Origin: Thermoanaerobaculum aquaticum | Lineage (GTDB): Bacteria > Acidobacteriota > Thermoanaerobaculia > Thermoanaerobaculales > Thermoanaerobaculaceae | Reading direction: 5' to 3' | Length of the DNA stretch: 64,000 nt | Assembly: GCF_000687145.1 (NCBI RefSeq) | Contig: NZ_JMFG01000002.1 | Span: forward strand, 62,001 to 126,000 | Notes under the pieces: model-generated | The model's database searches: none | What the model was told of the DNA's origin: nothing | The model's input: only the letters and a program-made list of their open reading frames with translations | Position numbers and translations under genes: made by a program | Shown here: positions 4,258 to 51,827 of the stretch, piece by piece | Numbering within the stretch: the first letter of the stretch is position 1 | Layout of the letters: the number at the start of each line of letters is the position of its first letter

Positions 4258-5600
4258 AGCGATGGCTGGTTGCGTTTGTGTTCTGTGCGTTCGGTGTCAC
4301 GCTTTCCGCCTGGGGGCAGACCCTGGAGGAAAGGGTCAAGGCGCTGGAAGCCGAGGTGGCGGCTCTCCGGCAGCAGGTGGCCGCCGCCCAGGGTGCCAAG
4401 GACAACGCGCGCCTTTCGGAGCTGGAGCGCAAGCTGGCGGTGCTCGCCGAGGAGCTGGAGCGCCTGCGCTTGGGCGAGCTGGGGGAGGCCATGGCCGCCC
4501 CCCGGGCCTTGGGGTTAGGCCCGGCGGCCTCCAGGGTGTACGCCGCCAAGCCCGGGGTTTCTTTGGCGGGTTACGGGGAGCTCCTTTACCAAAACTTTGC
4601 CACCACCCGCGATGACGGTCGCCCTTCGGGCAAGGTCGACGTTGCCGATGCTTACCGGGCGGTGCTTTACACCGGCTACAAGTTCGACGACCGCTGGATC
4701 TTCAACTCCGAGCTGGAGGTGGAGCACGCCCACACCGAAAAAGGGGGCGCCGTGGAGCTGGAGTTTGCGTACCTGGATTGGCTCGCCTCCCCAGCGGCCA
4801 ACCTGCGGGCCGGCCTCATCCTGGTTCCCCTGGGCCTGGTGAACGAAGTGCACGAGCCCACCACCTTCTTCCCTGCCCGCCGGGCGGAAACCGAAACCCG
4901 CATCCTGCCCGCCACCTGGATGGAGCTGGGCTTTGGCGCCTACGGGGATGTGGGACCCTTCTCCTACCGCACCTACGTCCTCACCGGCTTGGATGCCAGC
5001 AAGTTTTCGGCCTCCGGCTTTCGCTCTGGCCGACAGTCGGGAGCTCTAGCCAAAGCCGAAAGCTTCGCCTGGGCGGGGAGGGTGGACTGGACCCAAACCC
5101 CAGGGCTTTTGGCCGGCATCGGCGTTTACCTGGGCGAAGCGGGCCAGGGGCTTTCCACCAGCGATGGCCGCGAGCTCTCGGTGCCCACCCGCATCTTTGA
5201 GGCCCACGCCGAGTACAAACTGCGCGGGCTCACGCTCCGGGGGCTTTGGGCCCAAGCCACGGTGGGCGAGGCTGCTGCCCTCAACCGCACCCTGGGGCTT
5301 TCGGGAAGCGCCGCGGTGGCTGAAAAGCTGCAAGGGGGCTACCTGGAGGTGGCCTACGACCTCCTCCCCGCCGAGCGCCGGGTGCTGGCACCGTTCATCC
5401 GCTACGAGAAGATCAACACCCAGAAGACCATGCCCGCAGGCTTTGCCGCCAACCCCGCCAACGACCAGAAGATCCTCACCCTGGGTGTGGCTTTCCAGCC
5501 CCTTCCGCAAATCATCTTCAAGCTGGACGCCCAAAACGTCCAAAACCGCGCGAAAAGCGGCATCAACCAGTGGAACCTGGCTTTGGGCTATGTGTTTTAA
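4254..5600 (+). CDS. Outer-membrane porin with N-terminal coiled coil
   Basis: A 448-residue exported protein beginning at the ATG of an ATGA overlap with apbE, preceded by AGGAGG. It has a signal peptide (about residues 1-21, ending SAWGQ). A heptad-rich coiled coil follows (about 23-75, LEERVKALEAEVAALRQQVA), then a long series of alternating amphipathic strands ending in LALGYVF with a terminal Phe, as expected for BAM-assembled barrels. The overall plan resembles OprO/OprP-like or coiled-coil-anchored porins. Substrate is unknown. Position in a repressor-led operon with a periplasmic flavoprotein suggests uptake or export linked to metal or redox chemistry. Confidence 0.8.
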   Translation: MKRWLVAFVFCAFGVTLSAWGQTLEERVKALEAEVAALRQQVAAAQGAKDNARLSELERKLAVLAEELERLRLGELGEAMAAPRALGLGPAASRVYAAKPGVSLAGYGELLYQNFATTRDDGRPSGKVDVADAYRAVLYTGYKFDDRWIFNSELEVEHAHTEKGGAVELEFAYLDWLASPAANLRAGLILVPLGLVNEVHEPTTFFPARRAETETRILPATWMELGFGAYGDVGPFSYRTYVLTGLDASKFSASGFRSGRQSGALAKAESFAWAGRVDWTQTPGLLAGIGVYLGEAGQGLSTSDGRELSVPTRIFEAHAEYKLRGLTLRGLWAQATVGEAAALNRTLGLSGSAAVAEKLQGGYLEVAYDLLPAERRVLAPFIRYEKINTQKTMPAGFAANPANDQKILTLGVAFQPLPQIIFKLDAQNVQNRAKSGINQWNLALGYVF

Positions 5601-6129
5601 CGGCACGTTGCTGCGCCGGGGGGGAGCCTTGCTCCTCCCCGGGCTTTGCGCCGCGGTCCTTTCCGCGCGGGTGCTGAAAACCCCGGAAGAGGCGATTGCT
5701 CTGGCCTTCCCCGGGACGCAGGTCACCAAAGAAGCCCACTACCTCACCCCCCAGCAAAAGGCCACCCTCGCCGCCCAGGGGGTGGGGGAGGTGCCGGGCT
5801 TGGTTTTCCAGTACCGGGTGCAGCGGGAGGGCCAGCTTCTCGCCTTTGCCTACCTGGACACCCACCGGGTGCGCACCCTGCCGGAAACCCTTCTGGTGAT
5901 CCTCAACCCCCAGGGGCAGGTGCTGCGGGTGGAGGTGTTGGCCTTTGCCGAGCCCCCGGACTACCTGCCCCGGGAGAGCTGGTACCGGCAGTTTGCCGGG
6001 ACCTCCCCGGAAAAGCCGCCGCGTCTGGGTGAGAACCTCCGCCCGGTGGCGGGTGCCACCCTCACCGCCCAGGCTACCGCTACTGCAGTGCGGCGGGTTT
6101 TGGCTTTGCACCAGGTGCTTTCGCCATGA
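5590..6129 (+). CDS. Exported FMN-binding (FMN_bind) flavoprotein
   Basis: A 179-residue protein whose ATG lies inside the last codons of the porin gene. A hydrophobic N-terminus (GGALLLPGLCAAVLSA) suggests export or anchoring. The body matches the FMN_bind domain of RnfG/NqrC/NosR-type proteins. Near the C-terminus, VAGATLTAQATATAVR carries the GAT-x-T flavinylation motif, whose second Thr would be the ApbE-modified residue. apbE two genes upstream supplies the enzyme and the next gene supplies a membrane electron donor or acceptor. Likely role: periplasmic electron carrier. The acceptor (ferric iron, quinone or other) is inference. Confidence 0.85.
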   Translation: MCFNGTLLRRGGALLLPGLCAAVLSARVLKTPEEAIALAFPGTQVTKEAHYLTPQQKATLAAQGVGEVPGLVFQYRVQREGQLLAFAYLDTHRVRTLPETLLVILNPQGQVLRVEVLAFAEPPDYLPRESWYRQFAGTSPEKPPRLGENLRPVAGATLTAQATATAVRRVLALHQVLSP

Positions 6130-6647
6130 ACGGGGTGCGGCGCTCGGGGCTGAGCCTTGCTGAGCTGGTGGCCTTTTGGCTGGCCCAGCTGCTCGTGGGT
6201 GTCACCGGCGTGGCCCTGCTTGTCCTGCGGCTTTCGCCGCCACCCGAGGATGCTTTTGCGGCGGTGGCCCCCTCTTTTCCCTTTTGGCAGCACGCCCACG
6301 TGCTTGCCGCGCCGATCCTGGTTTTCTTCCTGGGCTTGCTGTGGGCCCGGCACGCCAGCCCCTTCCTCCGGGCCCGCCGGCCGCGCCGGCTTTCCGGGGT
6401 GGCCCTTTTGCTTTTGGCCCTGGTGATGGTGGCCTCGGGCTACGGGTTGCAGGTGAGCGTGGAGGAGGCGCTCCGCCAGAGCTTCCGCTGGCTGCACACC
6501 ATCGCCGGCCTGGCGTGGCTTGCCACCGCCGGGCTGCACCTCTTGGGTCGCCGGGCTACGAACGGGGGTCAAAGCGCAAACGGGCAAAACGGCGCTTGCC
6601 CACCTGCACCAAAAGTGCCGATCCTGCCGTACAGGGGACGGTCGTAA
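6126..6647 (+). CDS. Small four-helix membrane protein with heme-ligand-like histidines
   Basis: A 173-residue protein overlapping the FMN-binding gene by ATGA. Four hydrophobic helices are visible. Histidines sit where heme b ligands would: HAHVL and WARH at the two ends of helix 2, and WLHTIAG ... LHLLG spaced 14 residues apart in helix 4. This resembles small cytochrome b561/DUF4405-type proteins. With the FMN-binding partner it could move electrons between the quinone pool and the periplasmic flavin. The hydrophilic C-terminal ~30 residues are encoded antisense to the end of tyrS, a 92-bp convergent overlap; a shorter C-terminus cannot be excluded. Confidence 0.72.
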
Positions 6648-7782
6648 ACGGGTCGGAAACCACCGTCCCCTCTACCTTTACTCCCCCCTGGCTCATGAGC
6701 CTGCGGGCTTCGGCGTTGGAGGGGGCAAGCCCGCTGGCCACCAGCAGCTTGGCCAGGAGCTGGGGCTCCCCGGCGGGGAGGGTGATTTCCTGCACCTCCT
6801 CGGGAACCTCCCGCCGCTGGTGCACCTTGCGGAAGTGCGCCTCCGCTTCCCTTGCGGCGTCCTCACCGTGGAAGTCGCGGGTAATGGTGTGGGCCAGCCG
6901 GAACTTCACCTCCATGGGGTGCTCCTGCCCCTGCTCCACCCGCTTCTTGAGGGCGGCCAGCTCCGAGGCCGGAGTGTCGGTCAAAAGCTCCCAGTAAAGC
7001 CACATGAGCTCGTCGGAAATGGACATGAGCTTGCCAAACATCTCCTCGGGGGGATCCTCCACTGCCACGTAGTTGCCCAGGGACTTGGACATCTTCTCCA
7101 CCCCATCCAGCCCCGGCAACAGCGGCAGGGTCATGACGATTTGCGGCGGCAGGCCCATCTTTTCCATGAGGTCCCGCCCCACCAGCAAATTGAAGAGCTG
7201 ATCGGTGCCGCCCAGCTCCACGTCAGCCTTCAAGGCCACCGAGTCGTAGGCCTGCGCCACCGGGTACAAAAGCTCGTGGAGGGCAATGGGCTGGCCAGCT
7301 GCCAGCCTCTTGGCAAAATCGTCCCGCTCCAGCATTTGTGCCACCGTTACCTTGGCGGTGAGGCGGATCCAGTCCTCCGAGGTAAGCGCCCCCAGCCACC
7401 GGGAGTTGAAGTCCACCACCGTCTTTTCCGGGTCCAGGAGCTTGAAGATCTGCCGCTTGTAGGTTTCGGCGTTGGCCAGCACCTGTTCCCGGGTGAGCTG
7501 AGGCCGGGTGGCTTTTTTCCCGGTGGGGTCGCCAATCATGCCGGTAAAATCTCCAATCAAGAACACCACGGTGTGCCCCAGCATTTGGAAGTGCCGCATT
7601 TTGCGGATCACCACCGTGTGCCCCAAATGCAAGTCCGGCGCCGAAGGGTCAAACCCCACCTTTACCACCAGCCCTCGCCCTTCCTTTTGTGCCTGTTCCA
7701 ACCTTTTTTCCAGGTCCTCGGGGCGCACCACATCCACGCACCCCTTCAACAGCAAGTCCATCTGCTCGGAAACCTTCACCAC
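6556..7782 (-). CDS. tyrS: Tyrosyl-tRNA synthetase
   Basis: Class I synthetase that charges tRNA-Tyr. The signature HLGH (in [11 protein letters not shown]) stands for HIGH, and the KMSKS loop is present as EKMSKSLGN, the form found in TyrZ-like enzymes. [14 protein letters not shown] is also typical. An S4 RNA-binding domain forms the C-terminus (about residues 340-408). The start is one of two tandem GTG codons (7782 or 7779) just after GAGGAG; ATG 7761 is an alternative. It follows the M16-like gene by 10 bases, so the two are probably cotranscribed. Its 3' end overlaps the convergent membrane-protein gene by 92 bp. Confidence 0.95.
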
Positions 7783-7792
7783 ACCCACCTCC

Positions 7793-9625
7793 TCAACGAC
7801 GCTTGTCTTCGCTTGCGGCGCGACCCACGCCGAAGCGAGGCAGTATCTTAAAGCCCGGCAAACCGGCCACCACTTCCCGCACCTCTTTTTCCTCCGGGGC
7901 CACCCAGTGGCCATTTCCCAGCGCCGGGTAGAACACCGAAAGGGCCTTCCGGGCGGTGGCCTGGGCGGCGGAGCCCACCAGACGCTGGGAAAGGCTGGCC
8001 CACGCCTTGCCCACGTCCTCAGCGGAAAAGAGGCAGGCGTTGGCCCAGGCGGCGCCCAAAGCCTCGTCCTGCTGCTGCACCGTGGCCTGCCCGCTTTGCC
8101 CAAACAAAAGCACCAGCTTGCCGGCGGGATGCTGGAGCTCCGCCTCCACCCCCTGGGCCACGAGCCGCTGACGCAAGACCTCAGCGGCGACCGCCCCCGG
8201 AAGGGTGGCCGGAAGCTCCACCACCGCCACCACCTGGGCGGGACCCTCCTGGGGTTCCCAGGAAAGACCGGGGGCCAGCTGCGGCAGCCGCAGCACCTTG
8301 CCGGAAGGCAAAGCCGAAAGGAACTTCTCCGCGGCTTCGGCCAGCTCATCGCTGCCCTCCGGCAGCTCCAGAACAACCCCCAGGTTTTCGGCAAAGGCCT
8401 GGGGGGCCAGGCCCAGGGCGCTGCGGGCCCGCAGCAGGGCCGGGCCCGCCTTGGTTTCCCTGGCAGCGCTCCCCACCAGAGTTGACACCTCTTCCAGGGC
8501 TTCCACCAGCTCCTCGGGGGAGCCCACCACCGCCGCGGCGGCCATGCCCAGAGCCACGGTCACCTGCGAGGGAAGCCCCTTTTTGGCCGCTCGCAGCCCC
8601 ACCTCCTGCGCCAGCGCTTGGGCCAAAGCCCCCTCCACGCCGGAAAAGGCCACGGCCATGATCCCCACGTCGCTTCCGGTTTCCCGAAAGGCCAGCACCA
8701 CGCCGGAGCTCAACGTTCGTACCTCGGGAGGCAAGGTGCGGCGCTCCCTCTCCCAGAGCTCCGCTTGCCCGGCGTAAGCGAGAAGGACCTCTTTGAGCAA
8801 AGCCTCCGTTGCCGCCGGCGCCGGCTCCACCGGGTAAAGGAGCGGCCCCAGCTCCTTCCCCCACCCCAGCCGCTCTACGCCGGAAAGCGCCACCTTCTTG
8901 GGGTCCACCGCCCACAGGCTGGCCTCCCGCCGCTGGATGGCGGAAAAGTCCGCCAGCTCACCCTCGCCTACGGCAGCGGCAAGCTTTGCTCTGCTTTCCC
9001 GGGCCATCGTCAGCATTTTCCGGGGGTTGGGGCCCCGGTGTTCCAGCACCAAAAGCGGGCAGGGACTGCCCTCCACCCGCACCGGCCCGGTAAATCCGAG
9101 CTTCTGCCAGCGCTTTTCCAGAAGAAACGCCAAAACCGGCGCCAGCTCGCTCCGGGGATCCCAGAGAGGGGGCAACGGAAAGCTCCAGTGGAAGCCCTCA
9201 ACGGTTTGGCGGGTGGGGTTCACCAGCCCATCGGCAAAGCGGCAGGCAGCCCGGAGGGGCAAGGCCGGCGTCACCGCTTCCAGGGCTTCCAGGGAGGCCG
9301 TAAGCTCCCGGGCCGGCACCGGCCCTACCAGGATGACCGCCACAGCGCTCGAAAAAGCCGGCAAAGCGGAAAGCAGCTGGGAGGGCGCCGAAAGGGCGGG
9401 AAACCAGGCGCTCACCACGCTCTCCACGGGCCCACTGGCCTCCTCCCACCCCGCCGGCGCGCTCACCCCGGGGGGAAGCCAGACCGCTGCCCATTCCCCA
9501 TCCCCTCCCGGCAGCTCCACCACCGCCCAGGGGAGGCCTTTTTCGGTGCGCCCGGTGGTTATGGCCTGCGGAAAAGCAGGCCCGGTGAAAACCAAGAACA
9601 CCAGCGGGAGCAAGAGCTTTTTCAC
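7793..9625 (-). CDS. Secreted protein, weakly M16-peptidase-like, no catalytic motif
   Basis: A 610-residue protein with a clear signal peptide ([20 protein letters not shown]). Two halves each have the look of an M16 (insulinase-like) half-domain: a strand such as [20 protein letters not shown] followed by alternating helices and strands, and a second half starting near [15 protein letters not shown]. The zinc motif HxxEH is absent everywhere, so if it belongs to M16 it is an inactive scaffold or partner, like the non-catalytic subunit of bacterial heterodimers. No active partner gene is next to it. The start is GTG 9625, only 6 bases after a TATCAT -10 element, suggesting a leaderless transcript. 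Family assignment is tentative. Confidence 0.6.
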
Positions 9626-41276: not shown

Positions 41277-41651
41277 ATGAGGCGGGCGGTCCTGCTTGGG
41301 GTGGCGGTCCTTTTCCTAGCTTCTTGCGCCAGTCAAAAGTCTGCCCTTTCGGCGCGGGAGCAAATGCGGCAGGGGGTGGAGGCGGCGGTGGCGGGTCTCT
41401 GGCAGGAGGCGGCCTTCCGCTTTGAGCGCGCCCGGGCTTTGGCGGGGGAGAGCCCGGAGCTTTTAAACAATTTGGCGGTTGCGTACGAGGCGTTGGGTCG
41501 CTACGAGGAAGCCCTGGCCACCTACAAACGGGCGCTGGAGCTTTCCCCCCACAACTCCCGCATCCGCCGCAACTACGCGCGTTTTGCCGAGTTTTACGCC
41601 TCCTACATCCGCGGCATTAGGCCCAAAGGGGGGGACGATGAGGGGCGTTAG
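41277..41651 (+). CDS. TPR-repeat lipoprotein
   Basis: A 124-residue lipoprotein: lipobox LFLASCASQ (Cys about residue 16), then two to three tetratricopeptide repeats, the clearest being LNNLAVAYEALGRYEEALATYKRALELSPHN (positions 41464-41553), with a partial repeat before it. It likely works as a periplasmic scaffold. Its 3' end overlaps the next gene by 14 bases and the three genes 41277-45165 appear to form one operon. Confidence 0.85.
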   Translation: MRRAVLLGVAVLFLASCASQKSALSAREQMRQGVEAAVAGLWQEAAFRFERARALAGESPELLNNLAVAYEALGRYEEALATYKRALELSPHNSRIRRNYARFAEFYASYIRGIRPKGGDDEGR

Positions 41652-42324
41652 CTGGCTTTTGGCGGTGCTGGTTCCGGCGGTGGCCTTGGCCGGCGTGCGG
41701 GAAGTGGAAATTTCCCTGCCGGTGCGGCCCAAGCTCCTGCTCACCGGCCACGAAAGGGTGTATTTGGGTCCCTTTATCCGCGAGGCACCCAAGGCCGACG
41801 TGCCCCAGCAGAAGCTGGGTTTTGACGTGGCTCAGGAGTTCGAACGCTACTTGCGCCGGCTTTTGCGCCGGGAATCCAAGCTGCAGCTGCTGCCCCCGGT
41901 GGAAGGGCTACGGCCCCCCGCCGCCGACGCCCTTGCCTTGGCCCGCGCCACCCAGTTTTGGCGCGAGCTGGGCTCGCAAACGGGGGCGGACCTCATCGTG
42001 GCGGGGAGCGTGGACTTCCAGGTGCAGGACCGCTCGGGGTACAAGACCGAGGAGTACGTTTCCCCCATTGACGGCCGCACCTACTACCGTCAGGTGCTGG
42101 TGGAGCAAACCGGTTTTGCCTACGACATCCTGCTGCAGGTTTACGACGGCCGCACCGGGGCTTTGCTTCTGGAGCAACCCCTTAAGGATTTCCAGGAGCG
42201 AGCCGACCGCAGCTTTGACGAGTTTACCGGCATGTTTTCCAACCTTTACGCTCTGGAAAACCAGCTCATCGGCATTTTTGTCCCGCGTACGGTGAAGAGC
42301 AAGCGCATCTTGTTTACCGATTAA
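41638..42324 (+). CDS. Exported protein, CsgG/TolB-N-like by eye
   Basis: A 228-residue protein with signal peptide MRGVSWLLAVLVPAVALAG. The mature part has the pattern of CsgG-like or TolB N-terminal domains: a first strand VYLGPF, a helix VAQEFERYLRRLLRRE, LQLLPP, a helix with ARATQFWRELGSQTGADL and then IVAGSVDFQVQDRSG and YDILLQVYDGRTGALLLEQPL. The family link is structural guesswork. It ends 12 bases before the protease/propeller/barrel gene and probably works with it. Confidence 0.65.
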   Translation: MRGVSWLLAVLVPAVALAGVREVEISLPVRPKLLLTGHERVYLGPFIREAPKADVPQQKLGFDVAQEFERYLRRLLRRESKLQLLPPVEGLRPPAADALALARATQFWRELGSQTGADLIVAGSVDFQVQDRSGYKTEEYVSPIDGRTYYRQVLVEQTGFAYDILLQVYDGRTGALLLEQPLKDFQERADRSFDEFTGMFSNLYALENQLIGIFVPRTVKSKRILFTD

Positions 42325-42336
42325 AAGGGGGCGCTT

Positions 42337-45165
42337 ATGCGTGGCAAGATCCTGGCGTTAAGCGTACTGGTGGCTGCTGCAGCTCACGCCCAGTACTTTG
42401 GCAAGAACAAGGTCCGCTACGACACCTTTTCCTGGCAAGAGTTTGCCACCCCGCACTTTCGCATTTCCTTTTACGATCGGGTGGAGCCGCAGCTGGGCAA
42501 GGTGGCTTCCTTTGCCGAAAGCGCCTACGATGAGCTGGCGAGAAAGCTCAACTTCCAGATTCCCGAACCCATTCCCCTCATCGCTTACGCCACCCACGCT
42601 GAGTTTGAGCAAACCAACGTGATCATCGAAGGCATCCCCGAAGGCGTGGGGGCGTTTGCGGTGCCGGCCCGCAACCGCATGGTGCTGCCGGTGGATTTGC
42701 CCGATGCTGAGCTGCAAAAGCTCATCCAGCACGAGCTGGTGCACATCTTCCAGTACGAGATCCTGTTCCAGGGCAAGCTGGGCAAGGCCCTCACTACCAA
42801 CATCCCCCAGTGGTTCATGGAAGGCATGGCCTCGTACCTGGCCCAGGACGAGGACTCCCGGGCCAAGGCGGTGATGCGGGATGCGACCCTGGCCGATCGC
42901 GTTCCCTCGGTGGCCGATAACGTCACCGGCTACTTCGCCTACCGCTTTGGGCACATGGTGTTTGCCTTTGTGGAAAGCGAGTGGGGGGTGGAGGGCTTAC
43001 GGGACTTCATCTTTGAAACCCGCAACACCCTCACCGGCGCGGTGGACAAGGCGGTGAAGCGCGCCTTCGATTTGGACGTGGAGGAGTTTGACGCCCGCTT
43101 CCGGGCGTGGCTGCGCAAGAAGTACCAGCCGGTGGCCCTGGAGCGGGGGGACCCCCGGGAGTTTGGCCCGGCGTTCCGGATCGAGGAGGGGGTACGCTCG
43201 GCGGAGGCCTCCCCAGCGGTTTCGCCCTCGGGGGAGCTCATTGCCGCCTTTACCACCTATAAGGACGATGTGGACGTGGCGCTGTTTTCGGTGCCCAAGC
43301 GCAAGCTCTACAAAAACCTCACCCGCGGCTACACCACCCGCTACGAGTACCTGGTGGCGCAGCTTTTCACGGTGGGACCTAACCGCGGCAGGGATTTGGC
43401 CTTTTCCCCCGACGGCGACACGGTGGCGGTCTTTGCCCGTAGTGGCCGGGGACGGGTGCTCTTGCTTCTGGATGCCCTGAAAGGGGGTGTGGCGAAGGAG
43501 TATCCCATCCCGCAGGACCAGGCCATGGAGCCGGCCTTTTCCCCCGACGGTAAAACCGTGGCCTTTCACGCCTTTGCCAACGGCCAGGCGGATATCTTCC
43601 TTCTGGATTTGGCCAGCGGCACGGTGCAAAACCTCACCAACGACCCGGCTTACGATGCCGCCCCGGTGTTTTCCCCCGATGGCAAGTTCCTGGTGTACTC
43701 CTCCCAAAGCGGCGAACACGCCAAGCTCTTCCAGCTGGAGCTGGCCAACCCCCAAAACCGCGTGCAGCTCACCTTTGGGGCCGGGGACGATGAAGGCGCC
43801 AGCTTTTCCCGGGACGGCAAGGCCCTTTATTTTGCTTCCGATCGCGATCAAGGGGTTTTTGACATCTACCGCCTGGATCTGGAAACCCGCAAGCTCACCC
43901 GCCTCACCAAGGTCATCGGTGCCGCTTTAAACCCGGTGGCGGTGGTGACCAAGGACGGGGAGCGGGTGGTGTACCAGGCTTACACCAAAGGTCGCTGGCA
44001 GCTTTACCTCACCGATCCGGGGCAAGGGGAAGAGGTGGGGCGGGAGGAAGAGGCTGCCCCGGTGCAGCAGCGGGAGGTTTTCGTGCCGGCCATTACCGTA
44101 CCGGTGACCCAGGACAAGATCTCGCCGGTGAAGGGGCACAAGCTGTTTGCCGACAACGTGCAGGTTGCCGTGCAGTTTTCCGAAGACCAAACGCTCATCT
44201 CCCAGGCTTTCCTTTCCTTTGCCGACCACTACGGTGACCGCCGCCTCAACGTGCTGTTGGAGTCGGTCTCCGGGTACTCCAACTTCCAGGTAGCCTACGT
44301 GAACCTGGAGAAGCGCTGGCAGTGGGGGGTCACGGTTTTCGACGATCGCTCCTACTTCGTGGCTGCCGATACCTTTACCGGAAGGGAAGTGCGTCTTAAA
44401 AGGCTTTACCGAGAGACCGGGGCCGCGGTGTTTGCCCAGTACCCGCTTTCCCTTTACCTGCGTGCAGAAGCGGCGGCTGGCTACATTTACCGCGACATTG
44501 ACTACCCCGTCTTGTTTGGCGGGCAGCTGTTCTTCATCCCCATCACCGACCACATCCCCTTTGTGCAGGCGGGGCTTACCGGCGACACCACCGGCTGGAA
44601 CGACTACGGCCCGCACTGGGGCCGGCGGTGGTCGCTGCTTTTGGCCCAGGCCTTTGACGCCAAAAACGGGGGAACTTTGTCCCGGGAGCTGCGCCTGGAC
44701 GCCCGCCAGTACCTGCCGCTTTCCCGCCGCAACGAGCTGGCCTTCCGTTTGTTTGCGGCGGTGGCCGATGGCAACCGCCCCAGCATCTTTTACTTTGGCG
44801 GCGTGGACACCTTGCGGGGCTTTGATTACCGCTCGGTGCTGGGTAACCAGGCCGCTTACTTCAACGCCGAGTGGCGCTTCCCGCTCATTGACCACCTGGT
44901 GCTTCCCTGGTTGCACCTGCGGGATTTCCGGGGACGGTTCTTCCTGGACGTGGGAGCCGCGCGGGTGGACGTCCCGGGGTACACCCAGCCCTTCCGCTTC
45001 ATGAAAGACGGACAGCTCCAGGACGGGCTTTCCTCCTACGGCTTTGGCTTTTCGGTGGAGCTCTTCGGCTTGCCGGTGCACTGGGACTTTGCCAAACGGT
45101 GGGACTTCAAGAAGACCCTGGACAAAGGGTTCAACACCAGCTTCTGGATCGGTTTCCGGTACTAA
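42337..45165 (+). CDS. Fusion of gluzincin protease, beta-propeller and outer-membrane barrel
   Basis: A 942-residue exported protein. Signal peptide 1-19. A gluzincin-like domain follows, with zinc motif HELVHIFQ (about residue 133) and third-ligand Glu in QWFMEGMASYLAQ (about 170). Next come TolB/PD40-type propeller repeats (about 280-570), each with a DxAFSPDG or SPDGK-type turn, for example DLAFSPDGDTVAVF and PVFSPDGKFLVYSS. The C-terminal ~330 residues are amphipathic strands ending FNTSFWIGFRY, like the Omp85/bacterial surface-antigen barrel, with GGVDTLRGFDYRS matching the conserved loop region. It likely sits in the outer membrane with the protease and propeller in the periplasm. Substrate unknown. 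Confidence 0.8.
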   Translation: MRGKILALSVLVAAAAHAQYFGKNKVRYDTFSWQEFATPHFRISFYDRVEPQLGKVASFAESAYDELARKLNFQIPEPIPLIAYATHAEFEQTNVIIEGIPEGVGAFAVPARNRMVLPVDLPDAELQKLIQHELVHIFQYEILFQGKLGKALTTNIPQWFMEGMASYLAQDEDSRAKAVMRDATLADRVPSVADNVTGYFAYRFGHMVFAFVESEWGVEGLRDFIFETRNTLTGAVDKAVKRAFDLDVEEFDARFRAWLRKKYQPVALERGDPREFGPAFRIEEGVRSAEASPAVSPSGELIAAFTTYKDDVDVALFSVPKRKLYKNLTRGYTTRYEYLVAQLFTVGPNRGRDLAFSPDGDTVAVFARSGRGRVLLLLDALKGGVAKEYPIPQDQAMEPAFSPDGKTVAFHAFANGQADIFLLDLASGTVQNLTNDPAYDAAPVFSPDGKFLVYSSQSGEHAKLFQLELANPQNRVQLTFGAGDDEGASFSRDGKALYFASDRDQGVFDIYRLDLETRKLTRLTKVIGAALNPVAVVTKDGERVVYQAYTKGRWQLYLTDPGQGEEVGREEEAAPVQQREVFVPAITVPVTQDKISPVKGHKLFADNVQVAVQFSEDQTLISQAFLSFADHYGDRRLNVLLESVSGYSNFQVAYVNLEKRWQWGVTVFDDRSYFVAADTFTGREVRLKRLYRETGAAVFAQYPLSLYLRAEAAAGYIYRDIDYPVLFGGQLFFIPITDHIPFVQAGLTGDTTGWNDYGPHWGRRWSLLLAQAFDAKNGGTLSRELRLDARQYLPLSRRNELAFRLFAAVADGNRPSIFYFGGVDTLRGFDYRSVLGNQAAYFNAEWRFPLIDHLVLPWLHLRDFRGRFFLDVGAARVDVPGYTQPFRFMKDGQLQDGLSSYGFGFSVELFGLPVHWDFAKRWDFKKTLDKGFNTSFWIGFRY

Positions 45166-45215: not shown

Positions 45216-47126
45216 GTGATACGCGCGCCTTACACCAAGGGGGATGCGCTGGAGCCGGGGGTCATTGCGGTTCCCCCCCAGCTTTCCTTTTGGAAGAGGC
45301 TTCTGGCCTTTTCGGGTCCCGCTTACCTGGTGAGCGTGGGTTACATGGACCCGGGGAACTGGGCTACGGATATTGCCGCAGGCTCCAAGTTTGGCTACGC
45401 GCTGCTGTGGGTTTTGGTGATGTCCAACCTCATGGCGCTGCTTCTGCAGAGCCTTTCCGCCCGGTTAGGGATCGTCACCCGCATGGACCTGGCCCAAGCC
45501 TGCCGGGCCCTTTACGGTAAGAAGGCGGGGTTGGCCCTTTGGGTATTGGCGGAAATTGCCATCGTGGCCTGCGATTTGGCGGAGGTCCTGGGCTCCGCCA
45601 TTGGTCTGCAGCTGCTCTTCGGCTTGCCCCTCATCGCCGGCATCCTCATCACCGCTCTGGATACCTTTTTGCTTTTGCTTCTGCACGGCCGCGGCGTGCG
45701 GCTTTTGGAAGCCTTCATCGTGGTGCTGGTGACCACCATTGGCGTGTGTCTGGCCTTGGAGGTTTTCCTGGCCAAACCTGGGCTGGCGGAGGTGGCTGCA
45801 GGCCTGGTGCCGTCGTTGCCGGGGGAAGGGGCGCTGTACCTGGCCATGGGGATGCTGGGGGCCACGGTGATGCCCCACAACATCTACCTGCATTCGGCTT
45901 TGGTGCAGTCGCGGCGGGTTGCCCCCACCCCTGCCGGGATCCGCTCGGGGATCCGCTTTAACACCATTGACTCCTTCGTGGCGCTCAACGGTGCTCTGTT
46001 CGTCAACGCTTCGTTGCTTGTAATGGCTGCCGCGGCCTTCCACAAGGCCGGGTTTCACAGGGTGGAGGACATTCTGGAGGCCCACCGCCTGCTGGAGCCC
46101 ATTCTTGGCGAGGCCATAGCCCCGGTGGCCTTTGCCGTGGCGCTCTTGCTGTCCGGGCAGTCCTCCACGATTACCGGCACCCTGGCCGGGCAAATCGTCA
46201 TGGAGGGGTTCCTGCAGCTGCGCCTGCGCCCCATCGTGCGGCGCATGCTCACCCGGGCGGTGGCCATCGTGCCGGCGGTGGCGGTGATTGCCACCATGGG
46301 GGAAAAAGCCACCGGCGAGCTTCTGGTTCTTTCGCAGGTCATTCTCTCCCTGCAACTGCCCTTTGCCGTCATTCCCCTGGTGCACCTGGTTTCCGACGGC
46401 CGGTGGTTGGGGCAGTACGCCATCGGCCGCCGGCTGAAGGTGCTGGCCTGGCTGGTGGCGGGGCTCATTACCGGTCTCAACGCCCTTTTGGCCTACCAGG
46501 AAATCAGCGGCTGGTTGGCGGCCGCCGGGAGTTGGGCGTGGCTTCTGTGGGTGACGGTGGTGCCTGCCGCGGTGGGTCTGGTGGTCTTTCTGGGGTTTGT
46601 GATCATCGGCCCGCTCTGGCAGAGGATGAAGGGCTTGCCGCTGCCGGAAATTGCCAGCGTCCACGGTCCCGCTTCCATGCCGGCCCTGGCCCCCCCTCGC
46701 CCACCCCAGCGCATTGCCGCGGCGGTGGACTTTTCGCCGGCGGATACGGCGGTGCTTTCCTACGCCGTGGCCTTGGCCCGGGCCTCCGGCCGGGGTGCGC
46801 AGGTGCTGTTGTTCCACGTGGTGGAGTCGGGGGGGGTGAGGATCCTGGGCGGAGAGATGGACGACCGCGAGGTGCGGTCCGACACCGAGAGGCTGGAGCT
46901 TTACCGCACCGAGCTGGCGGAGCAGGGGGTGGAAGCGGTGTACGAGCTGGGGTTTGGCGAACCGGCGGTGCAGCTGGCCCGCCTGGCCGAAACGCACGGC
47001 GCCGAGCTCATGGTGGTGGGCAGCCACGGTCACGTCGGGATGGCTGATTTGGTGCACGGCACCACCGTAAACCACCTTCGGCACCTGCTGAAGATTCCGG
47101 TTTTGGTGGTGCCGGCGGGTTCCTAG
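45216..47126 (+). CDS. Nramp-type divalent metal transporter fused to UspA domain
   Basis: A 636-residue inner-membrane protein. Residues ~25-470 form an Nramp/MntH carrier with the metal-site motifs MDPGNWATD in TM1 and MPHNIYLHSALVQSR in TM6, and the GQSSTITGTLAGQ stretch. A ~20-residue linker leads to a universal stress protein domain (about 490-636). Its GSHGHVGMADLVHGTT follows the G-x2-G-x9-G-S/T ATP-binding pattern. The start is GTG 45216 with AAAGGA eight bases upstream. Mn(II) or Fe(II) import is likely; the cytoplasmic Usp part may gate it by ATP. A peroxiredoxin follows under a separate promoter. Confidence 0.9.
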   Translation: MIRAPYTKGDALEPGVIAVPPQLSFWKRLLAFSGPAYLVSVGYMDPGNWATDIAAGSKFGYALLWVLVMSNLMALLLQSLSARLGIVTRMDLAQACRALYGKKAGLALWVLAEIAIVACDLAEVLGSAIGLQLLFGLPLIAGILITALDTFLLLLLHGRGVRLLEAFIVVLVTTIGVCLALEVFLAKPGLAEVAAGLVPSLPGEGALYLAMGMLGATVMPHNIYLHSALVQSRRVAPTPAGIRSGIRFNTIDSFVALNGALFVNASLLVMAAAAFHKAGFHRVEDILEAHRLLEPILGEAIAPVAFAVALLLSGQSSTITGTLAGQIVMEGFLQLRLRPIVRRMLTRAVAIVPAVAVIATMGEKATGELLVLSQVILSLQLPFAVIPLVHLVSDGRWLGQYAIGRRLKVLAWLVAGLITGLNALLAYQEISGWLAAAGSWAWLLWVTVVPAAVGLVVFLGFVIIGPLWQRMKGLPLPEIASVHGPASMPALAPPRPPQRIAAAVDFSPADTAVLSYAVALARASGRGAQVLLFHVVESGGVRILGGEMDDREVRSDTERLELYRTELAEQGVEAVYELGFGEPAVQLARLAETHGAELMVVGSHGHVGMADLVHGTTVNHLRHLLKIPVLVVPAGS

Positions 47127-47903: not shown

Positions 47904-50900
47904 TCAGTCTTTGAAGCTGACCACAGCCACCGTGCCTGGTCGCACCTGCACGCTCTTTTGCCACAGCTGGCCTTGGCGCCTGAGCTGCACCTTGTACTCG
48001 CCGGCGGGGAGGGCAAGCGTTGGGCTGTAGTAGGCCGGCAGCCGGGTCCAGCCGTCGGCAGTGGCAAGGGAAACGCTGAAAGGCGGTAAGGGTGTGCCGT
48101 CGGCAGCAACCACCAGCACCTCGTCGCCGTCTTCTGCGGTGATTTCCAGCTTCCCTGCCGGTTGCAGTTGCAGGTTCAACCTGCCGGGCACTGAAAAGGA
48201 CGCCACCGCGGCGCCAGTGCTTCGCCAGAGGCCCAGGTAGGTCCCCGATGGAAGGCTGGTCACGAACCCCCTGCCGTGCCGATCCAGCTCCACCCACTGC
48301 CATACCGGCGGGGACCCCGGTTGCACCGCCATCAGGCTTACCGCTTCCGGAAAGCTGCCATCCTCATCCCGCACCACCACATGGAGCGCGGATTCCGGCT
48401 CCAGCTTCAGCTCCAGGGTTTGGGAGCCGCTTTCTGTCAGCTCCACCTCCCGCTGGGAAGGGGCGTAGCCGTTAGCCACCGCCGTTACCCGCAGCCTCCC
48501 GGGTGGCAGGTCCCGAAAGCTGAAGCTGCCATCATCCAGGGTGCGGGCCACGCGCTCGGGGTAGCCCCCGGGGCCCAGGTTCACGGTAACGGTGGCTTCG
48601 CTGATGGGCTCGCCCTGGCCGGTTACCCTCCCGGTGAGGGCACCGGTGGGCAGCCGCAGCTCCACCTGGTCGTCCTTGGTGAGGTCCAGGCTATGGAGCA
48701 GGGCAATCTGCCCGGAGGGGTCCACGACCGTGAGCCGTACCCTTCCCGGTTCCAACTCCCCGAGCACAAACTCCCCGTTTTGGTCGGTGACGTCCTCGGC
48801 AAAGCTGGCCTTGTTTTCCACCCGTGCCCGCACCAAAAAGCCGGTGACGGGCGTGGAAGCCCGTTGCAAACGCCCGCGAAGGGTGAGCGAGTGGCTGAAG
48901 TCAAACTCCACGAACGCCGGCTTTCCGGCTTCCACTTCCGCCACTGCCGTACGGGTGGCCCCGGAACCCAGGAAGCGGGCAGCCACCGGCTCTTTGCCCA
49001 GGGGAACGCCCTCCAGGCGGAAGCGGCCATCGGCCTGCACGGTGGTCCGGGCCCCATGAAAGGCGCGGATTTCGGTTTGCGAAAGCTGCTCGGCGGTTAG
49101 GCCCCGCACCACACCCTCCACCACCCCGCCGGGTTTGAGCTGAACGGTACGGGTTACGGTTTTGCCCCCCGCAACCTCTACCGACTCCGTGGCGCGCGCA
49201 AAGCCTTCGGCTTGCACCTCCAGCCAGTAGCTGCCGGGGGGAAGGTTGGAAAAGCGCCATCGCCCGGCACCCTCGCTGGCGCCTTCCCGCTCTTCGTGCA
49301 AGCCGCCGGCAAGCACCACCCGGCTGTGGGCCACCGGAACCCCCTGCCGATCGGTCACCAGCACCTCCAGCTCACCGAGGCTGCCCAGGTGGAGTTCCAC
49401 GTCGGTGGTTCCCGCCGCCACCAAGACCCGGTCCCGTTCGCCGGAAGACCCCGTAGCCTGCACCTGGTAGGTTCCTGGGCGAAGCCCCGAAAGCTGGAAG
49501 TAACCACCAGAGTCGGTAAGGTCTGACACGTAAATGGAGCTTTTTGCTGTGGCCGCTGCTTGCTGCGGACGGGCCTCCTCCGCGGACACCCACACACCGG
49601 CAGCCGGTTCCCCGCTGTTTTCGTAAACCCTCCCGCGGATGGCCAGGCCTTTGCTTAACCGGATGAGCAAGGGACGGTGTTCCTTGCCCGCTTCCAGCTC
49701 CACGGTGCGGGATACCGGGATGTAGCCCTTGGCCTCCACCTGAATCACCACGGTTCCAGGGGAGAGGCCGCCCAGCTGGAACGTCCCTTGGTCGTCGGTT
49801 AACGCGAAGTCTTGGTAGATCCGGCGGTACGCCCAGCCGGCGCCTACGAGGGGCACGGGGGCGCCGGCCTGGACTTGCGCGCCCCGGACCGGCTCGCCGG
49901 AAGCTTCGTCCACCACCCTCCCCTGAAGGCGGAGGCCAGTGGTCACCCGCAACTCCACGGGGCCGGCCGGAGGAAGGTCCAGTTTTGTTGGGGAGCCGGG
50001 AATGAGATCATCGCCCACGGCATTGAGGTAGACCACGCCTTTTACCGGTTGATCAGAAAAGCTGAAAAAGCCATGCTCGTCGGTCAGCGCCCACCCCAGA
50101 TCGTTGGCGCCTGGCGAGCTCCCCAGCCAAACCGTTGCCTGGCCCACCCCTTCTCCCCGTTCGTTCACCACCCTTCCCGCCACCTTTACCCCCGGCTCCA
50201 GCGTGACCACCCCTAGGTGCAAACCGCTGGCCGGCAGCTGCACGGTCAGAAGGCACGGCACAAAGCCCCTTCGGTGCAAGCGCAAGCCAAATTTGCCGGT
50301 GGGAAGAGCGGTGATCACCACGTTTCCCTGGGTGTCGCTTTTCCCTTTGGCAAAGGGCGCTTCCCGTTCGGCCAAAAACGCGGAGAAGGTTTCATCCTCC
50401 TCCAGCCTGTAAAGCTCTACCTGCACTTCCGACAACGGCTGGCCGCTTTGATCCTGTACGGTAGCGCTCAAGCGAACGCCCGGGTTGAGCGTCAAATCCA
50501 GCGAGCCAACCTCACCGGCGGCCAGCTGCAAGCTTGGGCTTTTGGCAACCCACTGACCCCACCTCGCCTGAACCCAAACCTCCCCGGGGGGAAGCCCCGC
50601 CACCTGCCACTGCCCCAGGCTGTCGCTTACCGCCAGCACGCCCTGGTCGTTGCCCTTCTCTTGGGTTCCCGGGCGCAGCGGCGCCCTGTTCGGTGCCGCC
50701 ACCCGGATGGGTACGTGGGCCAGAGGTCGCCCCTGGGGGTCCAGGGTTCGCCCTTTCAACGAAGCGGCAGGGACCAAACGCACCACCAGCTCCTCACGAT
50801 CCCTCTCCAGGGGATAGGTGGCAAAGCACTGACCCGGAGCTGCCACCCAGAGGGCAGCTTCGAGGCCGGGATTGGGGACCTGTCCGCCCTCGGGAGGGAG

Positions 50901-51827
50901 CACCCAAAAGGTCCCGCTCAAGGCCTCGGGCCAGCCGCTGGTGCGCACCAGAAGCGGGCCGTAGGGCTTTGCCGGAACCAGGCGGAGGGCGGGCACCGGC
51001 TTGAGCACCAGCTCCACCTGCGCTGCCCGGGTCACGGCCGCGGCGCCCAAAGCGCCCTGTGTCGCCACAACGCCCCTTGGCTCTTCCGAGTACTGCCAGA
51101 CCACCGCTGTCCCGTCCTCAGCTGTTCGTACAGCCGACCCCAGAGGCCCCCCTTGAGTGGCCACCTCTGCCCCGGCCACCGGCTGCCCCTGTTCGTTCAC
51201 CACCCGCACGCGGATGGGCTTGGACGCGTAGATCCAGTGGAATTCGGAGAGGCTGGCGTTGGCAAGGGCCCACCGGCCGTCCTCGGCGAGAGCCACTAAG
51301 GGAACCGGAATTCTTTCCGGAAGCGCTACCGCCACTTTCTTTTCAGCCGGAAGCCGCTGGCTGGCCACGATTGGACGCCAGCGAAGCGCTGCCGTTACCA
51401 GGTTGGTTGGCTGGGCCAGCGGGCTGAACACGGCAACCGTGGAGGCTTTCCCAAGGGACGGAGTGTGAAGGAGTTTGGTTTCACCCCGGGAAAGCCACGC
51501 CTCCGGTAAGGGGAGCTGCTGGGGAAGCCATACCTCCAGCGCCATGGCCACATGTTCGGGGGCCCGCACCTCCACCCGGAGGGGCAAAGGGGCGTCCACC
51601 GAAAGGGAAAGCAGGCTCCCGGGTTTGCCGGTAACCCGGGCCAGGGGCTTGGCTGGCCAGGAGGGATCAAACGCCACCCCTCGCCCGGCGGGGAAGACCA
51701 CAAGCTCCACGGTTTCCGCCGCCCCTTCGGTCCACACCCGGGTTTCCAGGCGCAAAGGCGCGGCGTGCACCAGCGTTGCCGCGAGGATCAAAACCAAGGC
51801 CGCCAGGGCAAAAGCTTTCGCTGGCAT
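47904..51827 (-). CDS. Giant secreted carboxypeptidase-regulatory-domain protein, paralogue 3
   Basis: A 1307-residue exported protein with signal peptide (ALVLILAATLVHA). Almost the whole mature chain is a string of ~80-100-residue transthyretin-like (CarboxypepD_reg/CnaB-like) sandwiches. The repeated signature is a strand, GxPxxGAxV, a TDxxGxFxLxGLxPGxY turn and a closing strand; clear copies are GLRLQGRVVDEASGEPVRGA, DDQGTFQLGGLSPGTVVIQ and LTDSGGYFQLSGLRPGTYQV. It aligns end to end with the two upstream neighbours: GRVVNERGEGVGQA (~555), GVVEGVVRGLTAEQLSQ (~900), and the LPAGEYKVQLRRQGQ end. No anchor, protease or sortase motif was found. It is the last gene of the operon. Confidence 0.8.
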   Translation of the reverse strand: MPAKAFALAALVLILAATLVHAAPLRLETRVWTEGAAETVELVVFPAGRGVAFDPSWPAKPLARVTGKPGSLLSLSVDAPLPLRVEVRAPEHVAMALEVWLPQQLPLPEAWLSRGETKLLHTPSLGKASTVAVFSPLAQPTNLVTAALRWRPIVASQRLPAEKKVAVALPERIPVPLVALAEDGRWALANASLSEFHWIYASKPIRVRVVNEQGQPVAGAEVATQGGPLGSAVRTAEDGTAVVWQYSEEPRGVVATQGALGAAAVTRAAQVELVLKPVPALRLVPAKPYGPLLVRTSGWPEALSGTFWVLPPEGGQVPNPGLEAALWVAAPGQCFATYPLERDREELVVRLVPAASLKGRTLDPQGRPLAHVPIRVAAPNRAPLRPGTQEKGNDQGVLAVSDSLGQWQVAGLPPGEVWVQARWGQWVAKSPSLQLAAGEVGSLDLTLNPGVRLSATVQDQSGQPLSEVQVELYRLEEDETFSAFLAEREAPFAKGKSDTQGNVVITALPTGKFGLRLHRRGFVPCLLTVQLPASGLHLGVVTLEPGVKVAGRVVNERGEGVGQATVWLGSSPGANDLGWALTDEHGFFSFSDQPVKGVVYLNAVGDDLIPGSPTKLDLPPAGPVELRVTTGLRLQGRVVDEASGEPVRGAQVQAGAPVPLVGAGWAYRRIYQDFALTDDQGTFQLGGLSPGTVVIQVEAKGYIPVSRTVELEAGKEHRPLLIRLSKGLAIRGRVYENSGEPAAGVWVSAEEARPQQAAATAKSSIYVSDLTDSGGYFQLSGLRPGTYQVQATGSSGERDRVLVAAGTTDVELHLGSLGELEVLVTDRQGVPVAHSRVVLAGGLHEEREGASEGAGRWRFSNLPPGSYWLEVQAEGFARATESVEVAGGKTVTRTVQLKPGGVVEGVVRGLTAEQLSQTEIRAFHGARTTVQADGRFRLEGVPLGKEPVAARFLGSGATRTAVAEVEAGKPAFVEFDFSHSLTLRGRLQRASTPVTGFLVRARVENKASFAEDVTDQNGEFVLGELEPGRVRLTVVDPSGQIALLHSLDLTKDDQVELRLPTGALTGRVTGQGEPISEATVTVNLGPGGYPERVARTLDDGSFSFRDLPPGRLRVTAVANGYAPSQREVELTESGSQTLELKLEPESALHVVVRDEDGSFPEAVSLMAVQPGSPPVWQWVELDRHGRGFVTSLPSGTYLGLWRSTGAAVASFSVPGRLNLQLQPAGKLEITAEDGDEVLVVAADGTPLPPFSVSLATADGWTRLPAYYSPTLALPAGEYKVQLRRQGQLWQKSVQVRPGTVAVVSFKD

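Follow-up and report, generated by a model that had tools for sequence, protein, structure and literature searches.

Proteins of the Omp85 superfamily in general insert or translocate proteins, and one subfamily, WD40-Omp85, was named in 2014 by Heinz and Lithgow by its architecture, without a function; its propeller is closest to TolB, and the subfamily was likened to a BamA-BamB fusion (PMC4104836, available text). The 'Metallo' subfamily in the same source is defined by PF00149, a domain different from the one described here. Metalloprotease-like and WD40-like Omp85 subfamilies were still considered 'not well characterised' in 2024, and the enzyme domain of another Omp85 protein, PlpD, is periplasmic by experiment (PMC11116518, available text). 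In Escherichia coli, the TPR-containing M48 metalloprotease BepA works on the BAM complex and can either promote LptD, a barrel protein, or degrade it (PMC8423444, PMC7950410, PMC13067283, available parts). Here we analyze a cassette of three genes in a 64,000-nucleotide stretch of the genome of Thermoanaerobaculum aquaticum (Acidobacteriota; assembly GCF_000687145.1, 2.66 Mb, 95.8% complete; contig NZ_JMFG01000002.1, positions 62,001 to 126,000, forward strand; hereafter, the window). The cassette encodes a TPR lipoprotein, an exported protein (hereafter, the partner) and a 942-residue protein that combines a gluzincin domain, a TolB-like propeller and an Omp85-type barrel (hereafter, the protease).

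The 942-residue protein shares with WD40-Omp85 the TolB-like propeller located N-terminal to the Omp85 barrel and the lack of POTRA domains, but it also has a gluzincin domain and is encoded next to partner genes, neither of which is mentioned for the subfamily in the available text of PMC4104836. Like PlpD, it has an enzyme domain that precedes an Omp85 barrel in the chain; however, PlpD is a dimeric patatin-like phospholipase with one POTRA domain, whereas here a protease and a propeller occupy those places (PMC11116518, available text). The resemblance to BepA is that of a periplasmic gluzincin working with TPRs and an Omp85 barrel (PMC8423444, PMC7950410, PMC13067283, available parts). BepA, however, is a separate M48 chain with its own TPRs, whereas the protein described here belongs to Peptidase_MA and has the barrel in the same chain. 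Finally, the cassette resembles TolB in its propeller fold and in the CsgG/TolB-N-like domain encoded in the same operon, but the two TolB-like parts are divided between two proteins, one of which joins the propeller to the protease and the barrel. No paper on the combination of gluzincin, propeller and Omp85 was found in the literature searched, which omits most subscription journals. A preliminary description of this DNA had noted that no function is described for this combination, which agrees with the literature searched, but it did not mention that the pairing of propeller and Omp85 already had a name (PMC4104836, available text).

The same description had read the gluzincin, the TolB-like propeller and the barrel as parts of one chain, and this architecture was borne out by Pfam and NCBIfam profiles, an AlphaFold2 model and fold matches. 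The Peptidase_MA_2 profile (PF13485, E=1.2e-7) scored 32.2 bits against a cut-off of 32.4 in the protein search and 35.8 bits, above the cut-off, in the genome search; the Omp85 profile (PF01103, E=1.3e-4) scored 22.0 bits against a cut-off of 24 in the protein search and 25.1 bits, above it, in another search of the genome. The propeller was matched by PD40 (Pfam, E=1.2e-28) and, in part, by the NCBIfam TolB propeller profile (TIGR02800, E=7.8e-33). The protein is not a TolB equivalog because TIGR02800 reached 114 bits against a cut-off of 343 and the N-domain and the propeller are not in one chain. The HExxH motif, a downstream glutamate and the family profile, which scores at the cut-off, place the enzyme domain among the Peptidase_MA gluzincins; the M48 profile (PF01435) was absent from the matches at E up to 1 and from the locus in the genome search. 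The sequence profile of the peptidase domain also had weak matches, to an aminopeptidase at E=0.0011 and to a collagenase at E=0.0063.

The AlphaFold2 model, obtained with a 43-row alignment, has a mean pLDDT of 88.5 and a pTM of 0.86, being weak at the signal peptide and in a few loops. The propeller region is ordered and a barrel is predicted, so that the outcome opposite to the earlier reading was not seen. Residues 281-565 have the TolB propeller fold (best Z 26.1 over 248 residues, 2.7 Å), and residues 605-942 have the BamA barrel fold (8xnb_A, Z 22.0 over 298 residues, 3.9 Å; BamA barrels, Z about 21-22), with 16 long strands between residues 604 and 938; the two domains are connected by a linker almost without helix (residues 570-603). 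The C-terminal 16-stranded BamA-type barrel assigns the protein to the Omp85 superfamily, and the propeller N-terminal to it, to WD40-Omp85 by the published architectural definition. No POTRA family was found among the Pfam matches at E up to 1, so the protein lacks these domains for receiving substrates and is not of the BamA/TamA type, in which at least one POTRA precedes the barrel. Thus, the barrel, which had been described in general terms, is an Omp85-type barrel without POTRA domains that carries the motif GGVDTLRGF, which we take to resemble the RG(F/Y) motif of Omp85 loop 6.

The putative zinc site consists of H132, E133, H136 and E162. None of the four varies among 43 aligned relatives or in a wider set of 67 rows including other phyla, 4 of whose 24 added rows had been chosen for HExxH. 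This conservation argues for an active enzyme. Six peptide patterns, including WFMEG, were used to find relatives and therefore favor those with E162; the genome searches described below are free of that bias. The alignment A1 omitted L001, L008 (broken frame), L020 (cut), L026 and L027 (weak matches, from genomes without a match to the peptidase-domain alignment A3), the window itself (L028) and the near-copies L034-L041 and L045. Taken together, the domain, fold and invariant-residue evidence puts the architecture well beyond chance.

The reading frames confirmed the three genes where the preliminary description had placed them: on the plus strand, the TPR gene overlaps the partner gene by 14 bases, and a gap of 12 bases separates the latter from the protease gene. 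To the extent that the order of these genes was followed in other Acidobacteriota, we analyzed 60 loci, namely, all 20 from one search (L002-L021) and 40 chosen for breadth (L070-L109). The TPR, partner and protease genes are consecutive on one strand in 53 of the 60; the estimated partner-protease gap has a median of 42 bases. In six of these 53 (L077-L080, L087, L088), TPR and partner are fused in one open frame. The exceptions are seven loci, L099-L105, of which L100 contains a diverged partner; for the six others, the pair is found elsewhere in the genome (loci L163, L154, L160, L151, L162 and L161). Chance or an annotation artefact is ruled out given that the reading frame, the domains and the gene order are kept across Acidobacteriota.

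Neighbor counts rest on 53 of the 60 loci, the protease being unplaced in L010, L021, L071, L079, L083, L091 and L099. The commonest neighbors besides the cassette, on one side, are dprA, topA and trmFO (named by eye), and these loci showed no co-conserved client gene next to the cassette. We rejected the three neighbors as a functional clue: in many Acidobacteriota they flank the TPR/partner pair, even in genomes whose protease gene is located elsewhere, and we take them as a conserved address, not a functional hint.

The partner was modeled with very high confidence (AlphaFold2, pLDDT 92.8). Its closest fold relatives are 8z5n (Z 13.7), FlgT (13.2) and PelC (13.1), followed by LptE (in LptDE) and PqiC (9.9), CsgG (9.3) and TolB (9.1); the chlamydial protein CT253 is also among them. 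The 50 rows listed in the fold search mostly belong to the FlgT-middle/PelC/LptE/CsgG/TolB-N group, with Z from 13.7 to 8.2 over 108-159 residues. Despite the common fold, no Pfam family exceeded its cut-off for the partner, the only match being FlgT_M (PF16539, E=0.021, 15.4 bits against 31.2); the Pfam profile does not assign the partner to the CsgG family, and there was no convincing sequence match in the PDB. The earlier designation of this protein as CsgG/TolB-N-like therefore holds for the fold and fails at the level of family profiles. LptE, PelC and CsgG serve as plugs, rings or docking proteins of outer-membrane barrels, and CsgG and PelC belong to export machines.

Presence or absence of the protease in 247 Acidobacteriota genomes was assessed with the peptidase domain alone (alignment A3). 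The full-length protein was rejected as a query: it matched 246 of the 247 genomes at E <= 0.001 and is unspecific because the common TolB-like propellers provide much of the match. The peptidase domain was detected in 143 genomes at E <= 1e-5, strongly (E <= 4e-57) in 122, and the partner was matched in 109. The strong protease and the partner occur together in 108 genomes, the protease only in 14, the partner only in one (G216) and neither in 124; these counts are not corrected for kinship between genomes, and the corresponding Fisher value of 8e-53, which ignores kinship, is not to be read as a probability. Of the protease-only genomes, four (G004, G020, G047, G240) are of family f15, and in G240 a diverged exported protein encoded between TPR and protease weakly matches the partner profile (E about 1e-5 when only that stretch was searched). 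In another nine (G085, G122, G180, G178, G186, G209, G224, G232, G242), the peptidase match is in the weaker band; G122 and G224, the only two of these nine that were examined, carry a second, longer subfamily. The remaining genome, G090, is fragmented. A sister family within the order was sampled with three genomes (G078, G144, G207), none of which has the protease or the partner.

Of the 108 genomes, 83 have the protease and partner genes as neighbors and 25 have them apart; 23 of these 25 encode a protease of the first type (E <= 1e-77). We retrieved 20 partner loci (L150-L169), 19 of them from the genomes with separated genes and the last from the genome in which no strong protease was matched; the TPR gene lies just upstream of the partner in 19 of the 20, and the pair is often located beside dprA and topA with the protease gene elsewhere. 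It is hard to see why the pair should persist once the protease gene has relocated unless they share a function, and this co-occurrence in trans indicates that the three proteins belong together. Co-occurrence of the three genes, one of the checks proposed earlier, thus turned out positive, with a strong protease in 108 of the 109 genomes with the partner and the genes in a row in 53 of the 60 loci.

The genome of T. aquaticum encodes other envelope machinery. Its own bamA has five POTRA matches and scores 502 bits with TIGR03303 (G000:C20, locus L170), a separate TolB candidate scores 339 bits with TIGR02800, just under the cut-off of 343, and there are 24 TolB-like propeller matches. A 910-residue BamA/TamA-like Omp85 protein is encoded by a gene that overlaps the TamB gene (G000:C15, L171:2811-5543 and 5525-7978, minus strand). 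Two M48 proteases were found, both of which read as HtpX-like, and a BepA-like one was not seen in the M48 search of this one genome. Given the BamA, the BamA/TamA-like protein and the TolB candidate, the cassette appears to encode an extra machine; taken with the HtpX-like reading of both M48 proteases, this suggests a device that would exist alongside BAM and could take the place of BepA. In a separate observation, bamA is followed after 2 bases by a gene for a 1118-residue Tricorn-like protease that contains a propeller, Tricorn_C1, PDZ and S41 (L170:1407-4763 and 4766-7168, minus strand); the genome therefore has another propeller-protease linked to the assembly of outer-membrane proteins.

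We tentatively propose that the 942-residue protein is a zinc metallopeptidase that resides on a POTRA-less Omp85 barrel at the periplasmic face of the outer membrane and functions in the assembly, maturation or quality control of envelope proteins, complexed with the TPR lipoprotein and the PelC/LptE/CsgG-fold adaptor; we regard this as quite possible, if short of probable. By analogy with the enzyme domain of PlpD, which was shown to be periplasmic, the N-terminal domains would face the periplasm. The propeller would gate or dock substrates, the TPR/adaptor pair would deliver or sense them, and the barrel would anchor the enzyme and possibly meet barrel proteins laterally, so that the protease could trim or remove envelope proteins near the outer membrane. 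The nearest working model, E. coli BepA, would have a similar mode of action, except that here the protease and a barrel form one chain. The protein may be a barrel-linked quality-control or secretion protease, as had been suggested, and the propeller may recruit its substrates. It is less likely than not that the cassette makes up a self-contained outer-membrane proteolytic machine with which Acidobacteriota mature or quality-control their envelope proteins, with the TPR/PelC-fold pair in the complex and, unlike BepA, no docking to BAM.

Several observations weigh against the proposed function. Among genomes from the phylum of Firestonebacteria, 36 of 45 also have the peptidase domain, as do 14 of 299 from the phylum of Pseudoalteromonas. 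All 20 loci analyzed outside Acidobacteriota have the propeller and the barrel signal (the latter weak in the six from the Pseudoalteromonas phylum), and none has a partner match; hence, the partners are not needed everywhere. Many Acidobacteriota live without the protease, with 104 of the 247 genomes lacking any A3 match. Furthermore, a simple lipobox pattern is present in 22 of 53 TPR relatives, so lipidation may not be general. The barrel may serve as an anchor only. In one locus outside Acidobacteriota (L130), a TPR-like gene was seen by eye just upstream. Gene neighborhoods in the phylum that includes Firestonebacteria differ from those in Acidobacteriota; an SppA-like or UppP-like gene, identified by eye, lies nearby in L136, L137, L140 and L138, L139, L141, L144. 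Within Acidobacteriota, the second subfamily is represented by four loci (L172-L175) encoding proteins of 1022-1135 residues with the same three domains and with HExxH and the glutamate kept.

The similarity of the propeller to TolB (Z 26) and that of the partner to the TolB N-domain (Z about 9) are also compatible with a Tol-Pal-related complex that links the envelope or acts on the cell wall, in which a split TolB and a CpoB-like TPR partner would be membrane-anchored and the protease would be regulatory. However, the genome has the separate TolB candidate, TolB-like propellers are common in it, and the partner is closer to FlgT-middle and PelC than to TolB-N (Z 13 versus 9), which makes this explanation improbable. 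Still less probable, in our assessment, is a surface-displayed nutritional protease whose N-terminal domains are exported to the outside and digest peptides there. The fusion of an enzyme domain to an outer-membrane barrel would fit such a role, and PlpD was once interpreted in this manner, but the N-terminal domains of Omp85 proteins are periplasmic, as demonstrated by experiment for PlpD (PMC11116518, available text). In addition, the link to two exported partners that lack barrels fits the periplasm better.

The coordinates of the cassette and of the features of its products, including the export signals, are given in Table 1. Farther downstream, the window encodes a 636-residue protein that by eye looks like a metal transporter of the Nramp kind with a universal-stress-protein domain at its C-terminus (45216-47126, plus strand) and a 1307-residue protein with nine carboxypeptidase-regulatory-like domains (47904-51827, minus strand).

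Table 1. The three-gene cassette and features of the encoded proteins (coordinates in the window)
Feature	Coordinates	Strand	Basis
TPR lipoprotein, 124 residues	41277..41651	+	lipobox LASC; Pfam TPR_19 E=1e-13, TPR_2 E=1.1e-11
Exported partner protein, 228 residues	41638..42324	+	FlgT-middle/PelC/LptE/CsgG/TolB-N fold
Gluzincin/TolB-like propeller/Omp85 barrel protein, 942 residues	42337..45165	+	Pfam, NCBIfam, AlphaFold2 model
Signal peptide, residues 1-19	42337..42393	+	sequence; hydropathy peak 1.84; low pLDDT at 1-19
Peptidase_MA-type gluzincin domain, residues 20-275	42394..43161	+	PF13485 at residues 63-260; secondary structure of the model
HELVH zinc-site motif, residues 132-136	42730..42744	+	H, E, H invariant in 43 and 67 rows
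E162 in WFMEG, candidate third zinc ligand	42820..42822	+	invariant; 25 residues between H136 and E162
TolB-like propeller, residues 281-565	43177..44031	+	fold Z 26 to TolB; PD40, TIGR02800
16-stranded Omp85-type barrel, residues 604-942	44146..45162	+	AlphaFold2 model, fold search, PF01103
GGVDTLRGF loop motif, residues 821-829	44797..44823	+	G821, G822 invariant; R827, G828 nearly so (43 rows)

What is new here is the enzyme domain with an invariant active site, the two linked partner genes and their co-occurrence with the protease in trans, which turn an unknown domain architecture into a testable complex. The near-constant pairing with the helper genes speaks for a so far unstudied machine for trimming or checking cell-surface proteins, and suggests a route of envelope proteolysis in a phylum in which the one genome checked showed no BepA-like protease.

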